This document shows positions 1,066-7,417 of a stretch of 43,817 nucleotides of DNA, one piece after another. Positions within the stretch are counted from its first letter, which is position 1. Each line of letters opens with the position of its first letter. Under the pieces are notes generated by a model. The model did not search any database, had not been told where the DNA came from, and worked only from the letters and a program-made list of their open reading frames with translations. Source of the DNA: Bacteroidales bacterium (lineage in GTDB: Bacteria; Bacteroidota; Bacteroidia; Bacteroidales; Marinilabiliaceae); NCBI GenBank assembly GCA_017417385.1, contig JAFPZF010000041.1, forward strand, positions 1-43,817, given 5' to 3'. The translations under genes and the position numbers were made by a program.

Positions 1066-1236
1066 ATGGCAGAATATACGTACATAATCCGAAAAGGTTG
1101 CAAGACTCAAGGGAGTCTTCCCTTTGCCCTGTCCGTCTGGGTGAAACACGGACGTGGAACTTATTGTATCGTAGAACGGACGAAGGCGGTAATAATCAAT
1201 GAAGAAGCCTTTGTCAAACAATCGAAAATTCAATGA
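1066..1236 (+). CDS. Small 56-residue protein overlapping the NVEAL gene
   Basis: This frame encodes 56 residues beginning MAEYTYIIRKGCK and ending EAFVKQSKIQ. Three things support it as a real gene: a promoter about 110 nt upstream, an AAAGGAG sequence five nt before the ATG (unusual because Bacteroidota seldom use Shine-Dalgarno sites), and a stop codon (TGA 1234-1236) that overlaps the ATG of the NVEAL gene as ATGA, which suggests translational coupling. It has no signal peptide or membrane segment. It contains two Cys, one Trp and several basic residues. I do not recognise the family. The N-terminus loosely recalls arm-binding segments of Bacteroidetes tyrosine recombinases, so a remnant of such a gene is an alternative. 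Confidence 0.5.
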   Translation: MAEYTYIIRKGCKTQGSLPFALSVWVKHGRGTYCIVERTKAVIINEEAFVKQSKIQ

Positions 1237-1472
1237 AGAAGATTATGTCAATGCTTGCAGCTTCAGCGTTTGCAGTTGTAGCAGGTGTTAACGTGTACAA
1301 CGCACAGGTGACAGAGACGGCGATGAGCGACTTGCAGATGGAGAACATCGAGGCCCTGGCTGCAGAGCCGGAGGTGACGGTTGGTGGACCATGTGCAACT
1401 AATGTTGCTGGTCTCTGCCTTTGGACCAATCCTTATGAATTGTGGTTCGTGTACATGGATTATAGTCGTTAA
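1233..1472 (+). CDS. NVEAL-type small exported peptide, first copy
   Basis: The 79-residue product starts MKKIMSMLAASAFAVVAGV, a basic N-terminus plus hydrophobic segment typical of export. It continues to the segment VTETAMSDLQMENIEALA, where NIEAL matches the NVEAL signature that names this Bacteroidetes family. The remaining tail of about 35 residues is rich in aromatics, with two Cys (GGPC, GLC), two Trp and an end of MDYSR. Residues about 17-42 are almost identical to those of the second copy at 2672, whereas the tails share nothing obvious. A hairpin and a beta-propeller lipoprotein gene follow. The function of NVEAL proteins is not established; a precursor processed near the EALA/EA boundary is an inference. 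Confidence 0.8.
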   Translation: MKKIMSMLAASAFAVVAGVNVYNAQVTETAMSDLQMENIEALAAEPEVTVGGPCATNVAGLCLWTNPYELWFVYMDYSR

Positions 1473-1479
1473 TTGCATC

Positions 1480-1514
1480 GTTCTGAGAGGAAACCCTCTC
1501 GGAACCTTTTAATT
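1480..1514 (+). terminator. Intercistronic hairpin, possible attenuating terminator
   Basis: The arms GTTCTGAGAGG (1480-1490) and CCTCTCGGAAC (1495-1505) make an 11-bp stem with one G-U pair and a 4-nt loop, followed by CTTTTAATT. It begins 8 nt after the NVEAL stop and ends 16 nt before the likely lipoprotein start, so it could partly terminate transcription and lower lipoprotein output relative to the peptide. Confidence 0.65.
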
Positions 1515-1520
1515 CATTAT

Positions 1521-2570
1521 ATGATGATTAGAAATCTGATTATTTTTTCTTTCTTGATTATACTTGCTTCATGCTCAAACGTGGAGCAACCGCTACCAGA
1601 GACTCCTGTCAAGCATTTCGGGAAGGCGTACAAGATAAAAGCTAGGAAAAAGGCGGATTTTGAGAGCCTTGACATCTTGAAACCGAGGGAACTTGTCTGC
1701 AACTCTGAGTGGATCGCTACTATCGATGATGGAAGCAGAAGTGGTTGTGTATGCCTTATAAGTAAAGATTTCAAACGTTGCATTCGTGGATTGCAAGTAG
1801 GTCAGGGACCGAAGGACTTGTCTAATGCTGCGCGTCTTTGCGTCTTGAACGACACGATTTGTGTGATGGACTTCAACTTTAGGCGGATGATGTCTTTGAA
1901 AGTGTCAGATGACAGTATATATGTAACAAACACAAGCCTCGTTGATGCGATAGGAGGTTGGGGGCGGACGGCTCTTACTTGTGGTAGGTATCTGATGCCG
2001 ACTCTGGCGGACTCGTTATTCATCAAGTTGACTGATGACAAGGGGAATACGTTGTCATCTATTGGCTATCCGGATGACAAAGTATTATCTGAGTATAGCT
2101 ACACAGCGAGAAACTCGATATACATGAACACGTGTGTTGCAGTCTCGCCAGATGAGCGTCACTTTGCATACGGGGTGATGTACGCGGAGACGTATGGTTT
2201 CGGGAGCATAGTAGCTACAGACATCAGTTCAACAAAGACATACGTATATTCGTCGCCTATGATTGGTCACGTCATAGAAGATGGCAAGTTTCTTATCCCA
2301 GCGAAGACCTCCAGAGTTAACGTCATTTCTGTTACCGGGAATAACGACATAGCGATTTTTGCATATAGCGGAGAAGGCTATAAGGCGATGGCATCATCCG
2401 ACAATCTGCTTGTGTACAAGTGGGATGGGGCTCCCAAGTTTCGTCTCATACCTGATACCCCTGTGATGATTATTGCGGTAGACAATTCTCGTGATGTCTT
2501 GATGTGCATAGCTTATACGCCAGAAGCGCAGTACGTAGAGTACGACTTGAAGGCGGTAAAAGACCTATGA
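1521..2570 (+). CDS. 6-bladed beta-propeller lipoprotein (BF3164-like), first copy
   Basis: The frame is open from 1473, but that part encodes the hairpin. The ATG at 1521 (or the adjacent one at 1524) gives a proper lipoprotein signal: basic MMIRN, a hydrophobic run, lipobox LASC and the lipidated Cys at residue 18, for a 349-residue protein. The mature part contains VGQGPKDL, matching the GxGP-(E/D) motif of the BF3164/TolB-like 6-bladed propeller lipoproteins of Bacteroidetes, followed by beta-rich segments such as CVMDFNFRRMM and AIFAYSGEGYKA. It is expected in the periplasm or outer membrane. Its place directly after an NVEAL gene, repeated in the next cassette, suggests that the two proteins work together. 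The molecular role is unknown. Confidence 0.8.
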   Translation: MMIRNLIIFSFLIILASCSNVEQPLPETPVKHFGKAYKIKARKKADFESLDILKPRELVCNSEWIATIDDGSRSGCVCLISKDFKRCIRGLQVGQGPKDLSNAARLCVLNDTICVMDFNFRRMMSLKVSDDSIYVTNTSLVDAIGGWGRTALTCGRYLMPTLADSLFIKLTDDKGNTLSSIGYPDDKVLSEYSYTARNSIYMNTCVAVSPDERHFAYGVMYAETYGFGSIVATDISSTKTYVYSSPMIGHVIEDGKFLIPAKTSRVNVISVTGNNDIAIFAYSGEGYKAMASSDNLLVYKWDGAPKFRLIPDTPVMIIAVDNSRDVLMCIAYTPEAQYVEYDLKAVKDL

Positions 2571-2671
2571 GGCGAGAGGATTTGTTGTGATTCAGTTGCT
2601 TAATAGATTACCTTAGACTGAGGTAGTGATAATACGTGTAGAGACTTCCTTAGTCAAGATACAATAATTAA

Positions 2672-2923
2672 ATGAAGAAAGTTAATGGAATGGTTGCAGC
2701 TGTGGTAGTTGCAGCGGTAGCAGGGGTGAACGTGTACGAAGCGCAGGTAACTGAGACGGCGATGAGCGACTTGCAGATGGAGAACATCGAGGCTGATGCT
2801 TCATGCTCTCTGTCAGAGGGCGGAACAGTGGTGTTTAAGTGCGAAGGGAACACGGATGTCTGTTACGAAAAACATATTGGCGACTTTGCAATATGCTGCT
2901 CAGGAGAGAGGGTGAATATGTAA
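2672..2923 (+). CDS. NVEAL-type small exported peptide, second copy
   Basis: The 83-residue product begins MKKVNGMVAAVVVAAVAGV. It shares with the first copy the segment AQVTETAMSDLQMENIEA, and the DNA over that segment is almost unchanged. Here the NVEAL-equivalent motif reads NIEAD. The tail is quite different: it has five Cys (ASC, FKC, DVC, ICC), is fairly polar and ends GERVNM. A constant leader with a variable, Cys-rich tail is the reason for suspecting a peptide precursor. No TAnnTTTG box is obvious in the roughly 100 nt before it, so it may be read from the upstream cassette. A hairpin and a lipoprotein gene follow, as in the first cassette. Confidence 0.8.
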   Translation: MKKVNGMVAAVVVAAVAGVNVYEAQVTETAMSDLQMENIEADASCSLSEGGTVVFKCEGNTDVCYEKHIGDFAICCSGERVNM

Positions 2924-2929
2924 AAAGTC

Positions 2930-2969
2930 ATACCTATGCGGATATGCGCTAGTATGTCCGCATAGGTAT
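2930..2969 (+). terminator. Intercistronic hairpin in the second NVEAL cassette
   Basis: A perfect 13-bp inverted repeat has left arm 2930-2942 (contains ACCTATGCGGA) and right arm 2957-2969 (contains TCCGCATAGGT) around a 14-nt loop, 7 nt after the NVEAL stop and 27 nt before the lipoprotein ATG. The downstream U tract is weak (TTTCTAACTT). The position matches the hairpin of the first cassette although the sequence is unrelated, which points to a shared regulatory function. Confidence 0.6.
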
Positions 2970-2995
2970 TTCTAACTTATCAATTGATTACATCA

Positions 2996-4096
2996 ATGAA
3001 TAGCATTAAAACTATAGCGTTTTGCAGCGTTTTAGTAGTGTTTATAGTGGCAATGACATCATGTTCTAAGAGTGGACGTGACGAGCGTTCTGTTAATGAT
3101 GTTATTCTGACGGAAGTGGATTTGCCAGCACTGACCAATTCAGCGATAGAAAAGGTGAAGATAGACTTCGACAGTGTCTATGAGACACGGACGTTTGTCT
3201 ATCATGATACAATCTTGATTCAGTTTGACGAGAAAGTGACGGGGCATCACTTTTTCAACCTGTCTGTTGTCGGATCGAACAAGTGTTTCGCACAGTACTT
3301 TAAGCGGGGGCAGGGACCTCGCGAACTGTTAGCACCTTATGTGTTTGGCATTGAGGAGAACAGACTGAGGTTTTGGGATATGATGACGTCTAAACATGGA
3401 GTAATAAACATTGACTCGGCTATTGTGCATGGTAATAGTTATGAGCCGATGCTCACAAACCGTGAATTCCCTCTGACATATTGTAATTGCTGGCCAAACG
3501 ATACAACATGCGTTATGGTGAATGTGCAATATATGGAGGGTTTTTGCGCTGATTCTGTCAAAGAGTTTTTGGTTTATGACGTGCGGAACGATAAGTTTCT
3601 TGTTAATAGTGCAGACAACACTCAGTGCTTTCCATGTAATGTTACAGGATGTTCAGTGGTGTATAATAGAGAGAGGGGGAGGATGATGGCAGCCTATTCG
3701 AATCGTCCGATATATGCATTTTACAATTCAAAACTGGAATTGATCAAACGTTTTATTGGGCCAGAACCGGATGATGCTGTATTTAGGTTGGGCAATAAGA
3801 CTGAAGTTGTATTTGATGGATTACCAGATATTTATTATATGAGAATCACATGCACAGATAGGCATATAATCGCAGCCAACTATCGTTTGAGAAAGTCGAA
3901 ATATAGAGGTGAAAGCCATTTAACGACATGTGAAGTGTTTCTGATCGATTGGGATGGGAATATCGTAGCCCGAAAGAATATAGGACAAGGTCCTGTTAGC
4001 CTATCATACAGTGAAGAGACAAATACGCTTTATTGGACAGCATTAGATGAAGAGGAGCAAAGGTGTTTGTACAAGTGTAAGTTGGGTGGTGAATAA
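2996..4096 (+). CDS. 6-bladed beta-propeller lipoprotein (BF3164-like), second copy
   Basis: The ATG at 2996 is preferred to an in-frame TTG at 2984. It gives a 366-residue protein with a hydrophobic signal, lipobox MTSC and the lipidated Cys at residue 23. The motif KRGQGPREL matches the GxGPxE hallmark of the BF3164-like propeller lipoproteins, and a second GxGP (IGQGPVSL) sits near the C-terminus. The overall plan is that of the protein at 1521, but sequence similarity is low, so this is an old duplication or two independent members. Codon use here is more AT-rich and less biased than in the housekeeping genes downstream. The partner is presumably the NVEAL peptide just upstream. The role is unknown. 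Confidence 0.8.
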   Translation: MNSIKTIAFCSVLVVFIVAMTSCSKSGRDERSVNDVILTEVDLPALTNSAIEKVKIDFDSVYETRTFVYHDTILIQFDEKVTGHHFFNLSVVGSNKCFAQYFKRGQGPRELLAPYVFGIEENRLRFWDMMTSKHGVINIDSAIVHGNSYEPMLTNREFPLTYCNCWPNDTTCVMVNVQYMEGFCADSVKEFLVYDVRNDKFLVNSADNTQCFPCNVTGCSVVYNRERGRMMAAYSNRPIYAFYNSKLELIKRFIGPEPDDAVFRLGNKTEVVFDGLPDIYYMRITCTDRHIIAANYRLRKSKYRGESHLTTCEVFLIDWDGNIVARKNIGQGPVSLSYSEETNTLYWTALDEEEQRCLYKCKLGGE

Positions 4097-4352
4097 AGTT
4101 GTGTTCCATGAGTTGGAGGAGAATTGAAGGAGGGGAGACGGAGGGTGTCGGAGTGGTCAGAATCGTCGGAGTCGTCGGAGTAGTCAGAGTCATCGGAGTA
4201 GTCGGAGGGAATTACAAATGGCGGCTCAACGGAAGCGTCATTTGTAATGATGTCGAAGAGGACTTGTCTAATGGCAGGATATTAGTAAATTTGTGAAAAC
4301 GGAGTTGAAGCAGAAGTAGAGGTTATTTTACCAATAACAAGATAGATAGAGA
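4097..4352 (+). repeat. Spacer with GTCGGA microsatellite
   Basis: The 256-nt gap holds an imperfect microsatellite from about 4139 to 4210 built from GTCGGAG/TCAGAGT-like steps, the same sequence type that recurs at 15.3-16.2 and 23.64-23.73 kb. Short open frames across it are products of the repeat. Just before the next gene, GTTATT and AATAAC form a small inverted repeat near 4322-4338. No convincing promoter was seen. Confidence 0.6.
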
Positions 4353-5131: not shown

Positions 5132-5185
5132 TGGAGCAGACAAGGCGGGTGAGACTTGGAGGCGGAAGACAAAAGCGAAAGATAC

Positions 5186-7417
5186 ATGAAGCAAAGCGTC
5201 AGATATATAGCGTGCTTGATAGCATTGATATTCTGTGCCGTGGAGAGCGCATATAGCCAACAGGCAGGCGAAGGAGAGGTGTCGAAAACAGACAGTATAC
5301 TAAACTTAGTTGCCAAGACGGGAGACGAGATGGAGAAGGCGAGGCTATATAACGCCATAGTGCACCTAGGAACGACGTCGAGCGAAGACAGGATAAAGTA
5401 TTCAAAGCTATCGCTGGAGCACTGCCACAAAGACAGCTTCAGGCTCATAGCCGACAACAACAACTACATAAGTTACTCATACAATCAGTTGGCGAAGCCG
5501 AAAGAGTCCATCGGATATAGCCGAAAGTTGATAGGGATGTATGAAAAGCTTGGGAGACGGGATCGCGTGGGTGTAATGTACGGGCGCATGGCAGAATCCT
5601 ACAAGTATCTACAAAAGTCAGATAGCATATTTCATTATTACAATCAAGCACTGCGAGTCTATGAAGAACTGAAAGACACGGCAAACATTTCGGAGACGCT
5701 TTTTGGATTAGGGTCGGCGTATAGTGACTTTTCGTTCTACAAATCTGGGGAAGAGTATTTTAGAAAAGCCCTTGCGATAGATTCGGCGAGACATGGAGAA
5801 AAAGAGATAGCTCGCGACTATTATGGCATTGCGCACAGTGTCTCGGAAGGATTTTATAAGAACCTATCTCGGGGGATAATGGAGTTGAGGAAGGCGGCAG
5901 ATATATTTGACAGAACGCATATCGACGAGAATGACATACAGTACATTATATATAAAAATATATCATATACATATCTTGCGCACAGCTATATCATGTATGC
6001 GAAAGAGGGAGGGGCGGAGTATGCGGATAGCTGCAAGCAGTATTTAGACAAGGTAGGGACATTTTTTGACGACATAGGATTTGAAGGGCTGGCGGCAGTG
6101 ACTCGGCTGGCGTACGTCAGGTATCTGATATACAACGGGAAGTATAACGAGGCGCTACCGATAATGCTTGAGCTGGAGGCGCATCTTAACAACGGGGAGA
6201 TGTCAGTTGAGACGTTCACCTTTTACGATGCCCTTTATGAGCTTTATGAGAAAAAGAAAGATTATAAAAACGCCTGTATAGCATTGCGCAAACGATACGA
6301 GCGGGAGTTGGCAATGATAAACGACAGTGCATTGGCGAGCGCGGCGAATGCGAAGACGGAGATGGCGCTCTACTACGAGCGAAAGATCACAGATGCGGAG
6401 AAAGCGCGGATGGAGGTCGAGAGGGATCGGATGTATGTAGTCATCTGTTCGCTGGTCGGGGGTCTGGTGTTAGTCTCGTTGCTAGTTTTCTACATATTGA
6501 GAGCGTTGAGAATCAGGAAAAAAGCCAATCGGGAGCTGTCGGTGAAGAACACAATATTGGCAGATCAGAAAGAAGAGATAGAGGCACAGCGCGACACCAT
6601 CCAGAGGCAGAGGGACGAGATACAGGCGGGCATCAACTATGCGCAGCTCATACAACGGATGCTACTGACGCCGAGCGAGACCATCAGCAGCATCTTCCCC
6701 GAGCATTTCCTGCTCTACAAGCCGCGCAACACAGTCAGTGGTGATTTTTATTGGGTCGGGCAAAGCGGGGACAACAAAGTCTGCATAGTCGCAGACAGCA
6801 CGGGACATGGAGTGCCGGGGGCGTTCCTGAGCGTGCTAGGCATGTCGAACCTGAACTATATCGTAGGGCAGACGACAAGACCCGAGGAGATATTGAATCA
6901 GCTGCGTGAAGCCATAATAAAGAACCTGAGGCAGAGGGACGAGACGCCAGCGGAGTGGGAGGAAATGACAATCGGAGAGGACACCGACCTCTGCCATGAC
7001 GGGATGGACGTCGCGGCATACGTCGTCAATGAGAAGACGATGACCCTCAGCTATGCCGGGGCAAACAATCCACTCGTGCTAATCAGGGACGGCGGGATAC
7101 AGTTGCTAAAGGCAGACCGGATGCCAGTCGGTGTCTATGCCAGCCATGAGCCATTCAAGTCGACGACCGTCAGTCTGCAGGAGGGCGATTGCATCTACAC
7201 CTTCTCGGACGGATATCAGGACCAGTTCGGATACAGGACCGGTAAGAAGTTCATGAGCAAGCAGTTGCGGGAGCTGCTACTAGAGATATACCGGCGACCC
7301 ATGGACGAGCAGAAGAGCATACTCAACAAAACCTTTGAGGAGTGGCGTGGCCCCGTCGAGAATCAGACGGACGACGTAGTCGTGATGGGTGTCAGAATAG
7401 GCAAGGGCAGATGTTAG
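5186..7417 (+). CDS. TPR-domain, membrane-anchored SpoIIE-type PP2C phosphatase
   Basis: A likely Ser/Thr protein phosphatase of signalling pathways, 743 residues from the ATG at 5186. Order of parts: signal peptide ending near SAYSQ; a helical sensor region of TPR-like repeats to about residue 380; one transmembrane segment at about 417-440 (MYVVICSLVGGLVLVSLLVF); a coiled coil rich in Glu, Gln and Arg to about 482; and a C-terminal SpoIIE/PP2C domain. The expected metal-binding acidic residues are visible in VSGDFYW, VADSTGHGVPGAF, GMDVA, FSDGYQDQFG and TDDVVV. The layout puts the TPR part in the periplasm and the phosphatase in the cytosol. Its substrate, perhaps an anti-sigma or response regulator, is not encoded nearby. 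It has its own promoter. Confidence 0.85.
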   Translation: MKQSVRYIACLIALIFCAVESAYSQQAGEGEVSKTDSILNLVAKTGDEMEKARLYNAIVHLGTTSSEDRIKYSKLSLEHCHKDSFRLIADNNNYISYSYNQLAKPKESIGYSRKLIGMYEKLGRRDRVGVMYGRMAESYKYLQKSDSIFHYYNQALRVYEELKDTANISETLFGLGSAYSDFSFYKSGEEYFRKALAIDSARHGEKEIARDYYGIAHSVSEGFYKNLSRGIMELRKAADIFDRTHIDENDIQYIIYKNISYTYLAHSYIMYAKEGGAEYADSCKQYLDKVGTFFDDIGFEGLAAVTRLAYVRYLIYNGKYNEALPIMLELEAHLNNGEMSVETFTFYDALYELYEKKKDYKNACIALRKRYERELAMINDSALASAANAKTEMALYYERKITDAEKARMEVERDRMYVVICSLVGGLVLVSLLVFYILRALRIRKKANRELSVKNTILADQKEEIEAQRDTIQRQRDEIQAGINYAQLIQRMLLTPSETISSIFPEHFLLYKPRNTVSGDFYWVGQSGDNKVCIVADSTGHGVPGAFLSVLGMSNLNYIVGQTTRPEEILNQLREAIIKNLRQRDETPAEWEEMTIGEDTDLCHDGMDVAAYVVNEKTMTLSYAGANNPLVLIRDGGIQLLKADRMPVGVYASHEPFKSTTVSLQEGDCIYTFSDGYQDQFGYRTGKKFMSKQLRELLLEIYRRPMDEQKSILNKTFEEWRGPVENQTDDVVVMGVRIGKGRC

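Follow-up and report, generated by a model that had tools for sequence, protein, structure and literature searches.

Short cysteine-containing peptides made with a leader are known from Bacteroidetes as the bacteroidetocins (class IIf, PMC6671954), which, in the accessible part of that report, carry a GG (Gly-Gly) leader of 15–16 amino acids, depend on an ATP-binding cassette (ABC) transporter/peptidase and have a thiol oxidoreductase in most of their loci. A leader-plus-core layout is likewise found in Bacteroidales among the GG-motif precursors of ribosomally synthesized and post-translationally modified peptides (RiPPs) with peptidase-containing ABC transporters (PCATs) as exporters (PMC10352776), and polymorphic toxin systems combine a constant front with an exchangeable C-terminal part and cassette recombination (PMC3482391), as far as the available portions of both sources go. 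Here we analyse two peptide genes of the NVEALA family (PF14055), each followed by a gene for a propeller lipoprotein, in a stretch of 43,817 nt from contig JAFPZF010000041.1 (assembly GCA_017417385.1, Bacteroidales bacterium, Marinilabiliaceae); this whole stretch is referred to as the window. Unlike the bacteroidetocins, these peptides have a hydrophobic leader of about 43 amino acids without GG, a GG leader of 15–16 amino acids being absent, and are accompanied by propellers, an ABC transporter/peptidase being absent; no C39 peptidase was found at E 1e-5 in the window or elsewhere in the host genome, which is 98.6% complete. They also differ from the GG-motif RiPP precursors in that they have no GG and C39 is not required, and the words "propeller" and "lipoprotein" do not occur in the available portion of PMC10352776. 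In comparison with the polymorphic toxins described in the accessible part of PMC3482391, NVEALA peptides are short, their partner is a large propeller and no toxin domain was seen.

The layout of the window cassettes proved to be real and general, and the strongest new result is that the C-terminal part of the peptide (the tail) and the propeller are a matched unit, whereas the leader belongs to the genome in which it is found. A constant signal and pro-region followed by a hypervariable, cysteine-rich mature peptide is also the layout of conotoxin-type precursors; the NVEALA peptides differ from these in being bacterial and in having a partner gene with each precursor. The Pfam entry gives no function for NVEALA (the original prediction spelt the family NVEAL), and neither the propeller pairing nor the tail families are part of the Pfam model. 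No paper naming NVEAL or NVEALA and no title on a peptide-propeller pairing was found in the open-licence literature, an absence that is no proof; the literature string PF14055 led mostly to Plasmodium papers by title and was taken there to be part of gene names.

An earlier reading of this DNA had proposed two cassettes of peptide plus propeller lipoprotein at 1233..4096, and this is what we find: the reading frames are intact, and each peptide is followed by a propeller with a lipobox and a GQGP motif, as expected of the GxGP type that had been named. The nearly identical segment with almost unchanged DNA is AQVTETAMSDLQMENIEA, 18 amino acids (residues 24–41) that are identical in both peptides; the best 54-base stretch of the pair contains 50 identical bases, compared with 25–28 in 12 mononucleotide-shuffled pairs. 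Counted in frame, codons 25–42 agree at 48 of 54 base and 17 of 18 residue positions, and the hydrophobic N-terminus (codons 1–24) is more loosely common to both (52 of 72 bases, 15 of 24 residues). Beyond codon 42 the pair diverges abruptly, only 27 of 111 base and 3 of 37 residue positions still agreeing. The tails are thus as different within the window as had been stated, tail 1 having two cysteines and many aromatic residues and tail 2 five cysteines. Peptide 1 lies above the PF14055 cut-off of 27 bits (37.3 by hmmscan, 37 in the genome search) and peptide 2 at it (26.7 and 30, respectively).

For a broader comparison 118 loci yielded 235 distinct NVEALA peptides, of which 192 had a propeller next and 185 a tail of at least 12 residues, the final set comprising 182 cassettes (tail of at least 15 residues, propeller of at least 200) from 70 genomes, 48 of them with at least two cassettes. 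From the PF14055 matches 40 regions were taken and others left (e.g. several of genomes G136, G288 and G315, plus G299 and G446), and a scan of the contigs of named genomes with one leader pattern gave 313 stretches and 190 relatives, of which 80, in 77 loci, were kept. A later set of matches and further loci from the window's own genus were left out of the statistics, genomes were grouped by hand with one genome per species, genes were called by the longest-ORF (open reading frame) rule, and companion families were named after one representative or by eye. Because the search profile was seeded on NVEA-like motifs, it accounts for part of the conservation at the end of the leader.

A propeller-type gene comes next on the same strand after 194 of 229 peptides (8 cases at contig edges excluded) and after 40 of 607 control genes, which were other, non-propeller genes of at least 100 amino acids from these propeller-rich loci, and the neighbour association that the original prediction had offered as a check is therefore present. 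When 65 of the next-door proteins were scanned at E 0.01, they matched TolB_like (PF15869, 33), DUF5128 (PF17170, 25), DUF4934 (PF16288, 16) and DUF4221 (PF13970, 5), with overlap; these Pfam names are descriptive and give no ligand or role, and a DUF4221 structure has been solved (3s9j).

Leaders are more alike within a genome (mean normalised similarity 0.520) than between genomes (0.322), and tails are equally dissimilar in both cases (0.103 and 0.100). Between genomes, tail similarity tracks propeller similarity (r 0.566; 182 cassettes, 70 genomes), as against 0.097 ± 0.034 after shuffling tails within genomes, and the observed value was reached in 0 of 1000 shuffles. For leader and propeller the correlation is 0.050 vs 0.043 after shuffling and was reached by 318 of 1000. 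The best tail match in another genome identified the correct propeller for 113 of 160 cassettes (48.0 expected) and, at a raw tail score of at least 50, for 88 of 103 (31.1 expected), the best leader match for 52 of 160 (48.0 expected). The whole set and five reduced sets each gave 0 of 1000, the reductions being to pairs with leader similarity below 0.30, or removal of the largest tail family, of all 28 tail clusters, of propellers until no two were above 0.5, or of Parabacteroides-labelled genomes; cassettes of related species are not independent in these counts. Without the 28 clusters the tail-propeller correlation is 0.161 (null 0.062). These clusters hold 85 of the 182 tails and each spans more than one genome. 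The constant leader with a variable tail that had been proposed is supported, with one correction: leaders and tails do behave differently, but the tails are not simply variable. Two tails of about 70 residues with a similar GG-F-CTPIEC end were seen in two genomes (L127 7001-7345 and L050 1899-2249), with a leader similarity of 0.27 and related propellers (0.25, background 0.04).

Within a genome the likeness of leaders extends to synonymous codons. In 123 same-genome pairs with unrelated propellers, which are not independent of each other, codon usage predicts 1391.3 identical codons among the 3513 leader positions that code for the same residue, and 2381 were observed; identity exceeds expectation in 117 of the 123 pairs; the window pair has 21 of 28 vs 10.5. 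Near-identical leader codons next to unrelated propellers suggest that leaders have been copied between cassettes or that new tail-propeller units have been joined to resident leaders. That the tail goes with the propeller and the leader with the genome favours a ligand and its binder.

Cysteine numbers in the tails are mostly even. Two cysteines occur in 63 of the 182 tails, four in 70, six in 21 and an odd number in 28, i.e. 154 are even compared with 84.6 ± 6.7 under a scatter model (largest of 5000 draws 109); the count is even in 101 of 125 when each cluster is represented by a single tail, and an excess of even counts was not seen for nine other residues. This result bears on the idea that peptide and propeller are neutrally inherited, linked only by position, the tail being a decaying and unconstrained end. 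Neighbouring genes do co-inherit, and a peptide at L061 7665-7802 has an intact leader but has lost its tail after LALANV with a full-length propeller gene still downstream, a decayed peptide with a surviving partner; the even counts, the cross-genome clusters and the equally linked leader, which does not track the propeller, leave neutral inheritance very improbable.

Companion genes were counted in the loci of 78 genomes. DUF1573 lipoproteins (75 in 50 genomes) are followed in number by a sensor-regulator family (52 in 35), a transglutaminase-like lipoprotein of about 649 amino acids (51 in 38), the S26 signal peptidase family (32 in 28) and a Wzy_C protein family (30 in 25), and HlyD is found in the loci of 17 genomes, RND in 15 and TolC in 13. 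Behind the propeller of the 182 cassettes lies a DUF1573 gene in 37 cases, another peptide in 37 and another propeller in 28, and 116 propeller-to-propeller steps were counted. The DUF1573 family has a CxxC within the first 150 residues in 65 of 75 members, a 13-member alignment matches the thiol-disulfide oxidoreductase StoA (E 5.9e-5), and a structural model (predicted local distance difference test, pLDDT, 84.1; predicted template modelling score, pTM, 0.58) has two parts, one like HYDIN-type domains and the other like ResA, DsbE and peroxiredoxins; we read these companions as thioredoxin-fold lipoproteins. An iron-response table of B. thetaiotaomicron, in the accessible part of PMC10434189, lists BT0662 (O-antigen ligase family) and BT0664 (6-bladed beta-propeller) with the values 0.132 and 0.353 beside their fold changes; these are the same gene kinds as in NVEALA loci and are a lead only.

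One class of tails has a regulatory neighbour. A divergently transcribed sensor-regulator adjoins 28 of the 182 cassettes, namely 16 of the 18 in the largest tail family (CxGxGSxDC) vs 12 of the 151 others with the upstream gene in view. Two hydrophobic, membrane-type segments are present in 40 of the 52 family members; among the members scanned, one has a C-terminal winged helix, another a C-terminal histidine kinase and one no Pfam match, and the sensor parts of shorter and longer members are weakly alike (E 4e-6 to 6e-4). A C-x6-7-C loop occurs in 26 of the 28 sensor-linked tails, and exactly two cysteines together with this loop in 25 of 28 vs 32 of 141 others.

In the account that we favour each cassette would encode a secreted peptide and an envelope lipoprotein that binds it. 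The precursor would enter the envelope via its hydrophobic N-terminus, an enzyme, probably of the signal-peptidase type, would release the tail by cutting at or close to the A-x-A of NVEALA, the tail cysteines would pair into disulfides, and the product of the neighbouring gene, a six-bladed propeller, would bind the free tail; tail and propeller would be inherited and exchanged as one unit, with leaders homogenised within each genome. A-x-A is what signal peptidase I cuts. Of the 182 leaders, 176 have Ala at position -1 and 170 have it at -3, figures that are in part built into the search profile, the peptide 2 leader keeps A-x-A though D replaces L, and the hydrophobic stretch stops at a nearly fixed distance before the ALA end (median 23 residues, 5–95% 20–24, n=175). 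It is quite likely that peptide and propeller are a matched peptide and its binding partner, and the whole account, in which a disulfide-bonded tail is released near ALA and then recognised by the propeller of its own cassette, is probably correct. The precursor-plus-partner layout first proposed is supported by the contrast between leader and tail, the neighbour association and the tail-propeller tracking between genomes; the propeller is less likely to be an export partner than a binding partner.

Several observations weigh against this account. Tail 2 has no clear relative (best raw score 41) and an odd number of cysteines, propeller 2 is without a clear relative among the 182 cassettes (best raw score 118), and genome-wide searches placed no S26, DUF1573 or Wzy_C match on the window contig. 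In the sample 35 of 229 peptides do not directly precede a propeller, 16 of these preceding another peptide. The rank correlation is weak (Spearman 0.063 for tail and propeller, 0.152 for leader and propeller), because most pairs are unrelated in both parts and the signal resides in the related pairs, and the tail-propeller matching could come partly from inheritance of whole cassettes rather than from binding. In 143 of 175 leaders the hydrophobic stretch is soon followed by a small-x-small site, and cleavage there instead of at ALA is possible, as is a two-step processing. Surface export of lipoproteins can be signalled by acidic residues after the lipobox cysteine, and such a signal is not evident in the propellers. 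These, with a lipobox recognised in 131 of 182, have a mean of 0.79 acidic residues at +2 to +6, and three companion families have means of 0.81 to 0.94. Finally, the C-x6-7-C loop is also present in 87 of 141 other tails, window tail 2 included, and was rejected as a mark of the sensor-linked class; the loop alone therefore does not place tail 1 in that class.

As to the purpose of such pairs, peptide sensing is the use that we tentatively favour as possible, the sensor-regulator genes beside one tail class leaning the balance to signalling. A bolder and more doubtful proposal is that the NVEALA genes might form a large peptide-signalling repertoire of Gram-negative Bacteroidales, in which disulfide-bonded peptides would be released from a shared bipartite leader and each have a private propeller receptor on the envelope, the founding two-cysteine loop class would be wired to a trans-envelope sensor controlling the array, and new pairs would be taken up by recombination inside the leader. 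A genome could then change what it says and hears with its secretion route unchanged.

A peptide toxin with immunity is rather unlikely but the most serious competitor: once released, the tail would kill or inhibit related bacteria, and in the producing cell the propeller lipoprotein would neutralise it. Tandem polymorphic pairs with matching tail and propeller would be expected of a toxin with its immunity protein, as would lone propellers, and the propeller-to-propeller steps could be orphan immunity genes; RND, HlyD and TolC genes lie near some loci, and disulfide-type tails with a nearby thiol oxidoreductase recall the bacteroidetocin loci in the accessible part of PMC6671954. Those loci, however, employ a GG leader together with an ABC transporter/peptidase, and no C39 peptidase was found in 5 of 12 NVEALA genomes; Pfam scans showed no toxin homology, propellers of about 350 amino acids would be unusual as immunity proteins, and the sensor-regulators beside one tail class fit signalling better.

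Improbable, too, is an envelope complex in which the peptide would serve the propeller as a small subunit or cofactor-binding partner and be neither a free messenger nor a weapon. The near-obligate pairing, the tail-propeller matching and the fixed spacer in the leader would suit such a subunit, and the host genome keeps two cassettes without an adjoining regulator or companions; extreme tail diversity and tandem arrays with shared leaders would, however, be atypical of a housekeeping subunit, and the sensor-regulator and redox companions would be left unexplained.

The motif of GG leaders is LSxxELxxIxGG. A bacteriocin or RiPP precursor of this kind, served by a C39 peptidase transporter and with L-S-x-x-x-L-x-x-V-x-A as a changed GG motif, is the least probable reading and was rejected as a general route, for although LSDLALANVEA resembles the motif by eye and C39 is found somewhere in 7 of 12 NVEALA genomes, it is absent at E 1e-5 from the other five (including the window's own, a single-contig genome and one that is 74% complete), no C39 was recognised by eye among representatives of 26 listed companion families or among the Pfam families of two companion sets, of which 25 per set were covered (22 and 6 more being in the sets), and a hydrophobic segment precedes the motif.

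Through the matching of tail and propeller between genomes, two unknowns become a ligand-binder pair that can be tested, and the sample offers dozens of natural pairs as well as mismatched controls. Should the pairs serve signalling, Gram-negative gut bacteria would have a peptide language that has gone unrecognised; should they kill, they would amount to a bacteriocin class that is both large and unrecognised.

Features of the two NVEALA cassettes in the window
Feature	Position	Strand	Basis
NVEALA precursor peptide 1 (79 aa)	1233..1472	+	intact ORF; PF14055 match
Peptide 1 leader: hydrophobic N-terminus, spacer, NIEALA end	1233..1361	+	sequence
Shared segment AQVTETAMSDLQMENIEA in peptide 1	1302..1355	+	sequence comparison
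Peptide 1 tail (36 aa), 2 Cys in CATNVAGLC loop, aromatic end; putative mature peptide	1362..1469	+	sequence
Propeller lipoprotein 1 (349 aa), lipobox LASC, GQGP at 1800-1811	1521..2570	+	
NVEALA precursor peptide 2 (83 aa)	2672..2923	+	intact ORF; PF14055
Peptide 2 leader, IEADA end	2672..2800	+	sequence
Shared segment AQVTETAMSDLQMENIEA in peptide 2	2741..2794	+	sequence comparison
Peptide 2 tail (40 aa, 5 Cys)	2801..2920	+	sequence
Propeller lipoprotein 2 (366 aa), GQGP at 3308-3319 and 3983-3994	2996..4096	+	PF15869 match below cut-off

The ATG codons were taken as the propeller starts, and upstream TTG frames at 1473 and 2984 were not. Both propellers have a lipobox cysteine (Cys 18 in propeller 1; MTSC in propeller 2), and both stay under the 29.2-bit cut-off of TolB_like, with 16.0 bits for propeller 1 and 27.3 bits (E 2.8e-6) for propeller 2. 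The predicted structure of propeller 1 is a confident propeller (pLDDT 90.8), and modelling is consistent with a six-bladed propeller lipoprotein. In the visible part of a table of Bacteroidetes-specific proteins BF3164 is given as a putative lipoprotein.

Window cassette 1 is nearest to a cassette at locus L043 of genome G058, by propeller and weakly by tail (2010-2246, raw score 39), and two regulator-linked cassettes (L134 4546 and L050 18521) are the fourth and fifth among the relatives of its propeller. No sensor-regulator was recognised in the ORFs on either side of the window cassettes, where the contig ends 1.2 kb upstream, or by eye beside L043. An ORF of 56 amino acids at 1066-1236, whose stop overlaps the start codon of peptide 1, was not counted as part of the cassette; it has no Pfam match at E 1e-4, and a search of 15 genomes of the genus gave nothing but the ORF itself and a single weak match containing stops.

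A profile of 57 leaders found only the two window peptides in the host genome at E 0.05, and the Pfam model at E 10 added one weak match (18.3 bits) within a 274-amino-acid frame on another contig. Two S26 genes on contig C32 adjoin a gene read as dapB and are therefore probably housekeeping, with a propeller gene about 3 kb before them; DUF1573 genes lie on contigs C77 and C7 and the Wzy_C gene at the start of C20. On C20, Wzy_C, TolC- and RND-like genes and a propeller are found within 12 kb and no NVEALA peptide was detected, and this may be a partial companion set. Three host propellers, on C20, C27 and C32, have no NVEALA peptide in front; their loci are L197 9039-10214, L198 6759-7952 and L199 5790-6824. 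The one at L199 resembles window propeller 1 by eye, and the one at L198 lies behind TolC- and RND-like genes, its contig carrying Wzy_C as well.

Within the window's family the Pfam model detected NVEALA genes in 6 of 71 genomes (E 1e-3), and within its order in 26 of 392 sampled genomes, representing 17 of 204 genera (E 1e-4); in the window's genus the leader profile matches 13 of 15 genomes at E 0.05 and only 6 of 15 at 1e-4. The loci from the scan of named genomes are mostly from Parabacteroides, Bacteroides, Phocaeicola, Prevotellaceae and Tannerella, with one Parapedobacter contig. Contigs of metagenome-assembled genomes titled Clostridiaceae and Candidatus Stoquefichus (L119, L120) carry NVEALA loci of the Bacteroidales type, likely as binning contamination. 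Genome G382 has eight NVEALA peptides within 16 kb (L057), with nearly the same leader and different tails, and no C39 peptidase was found in it.

Downstream of the window cassettes, at 5156-7417, lies a gene for a TPR and SpoIIE-type phosphatase protein, relatives of which are found near NVEALA loci in two other genomes (L071 80-2284 and L048 10077-12092). Upstream of peptide 1, positions 1-900 contain GC-rich direct repeats, with three copies of 135 nt (the others 90 and 97% identical to the first) and four copies of 66 nt at spacings of 162-294, and a similar low-complexity stretch was seen by eye behind propeller 2, at about 4120-4210.

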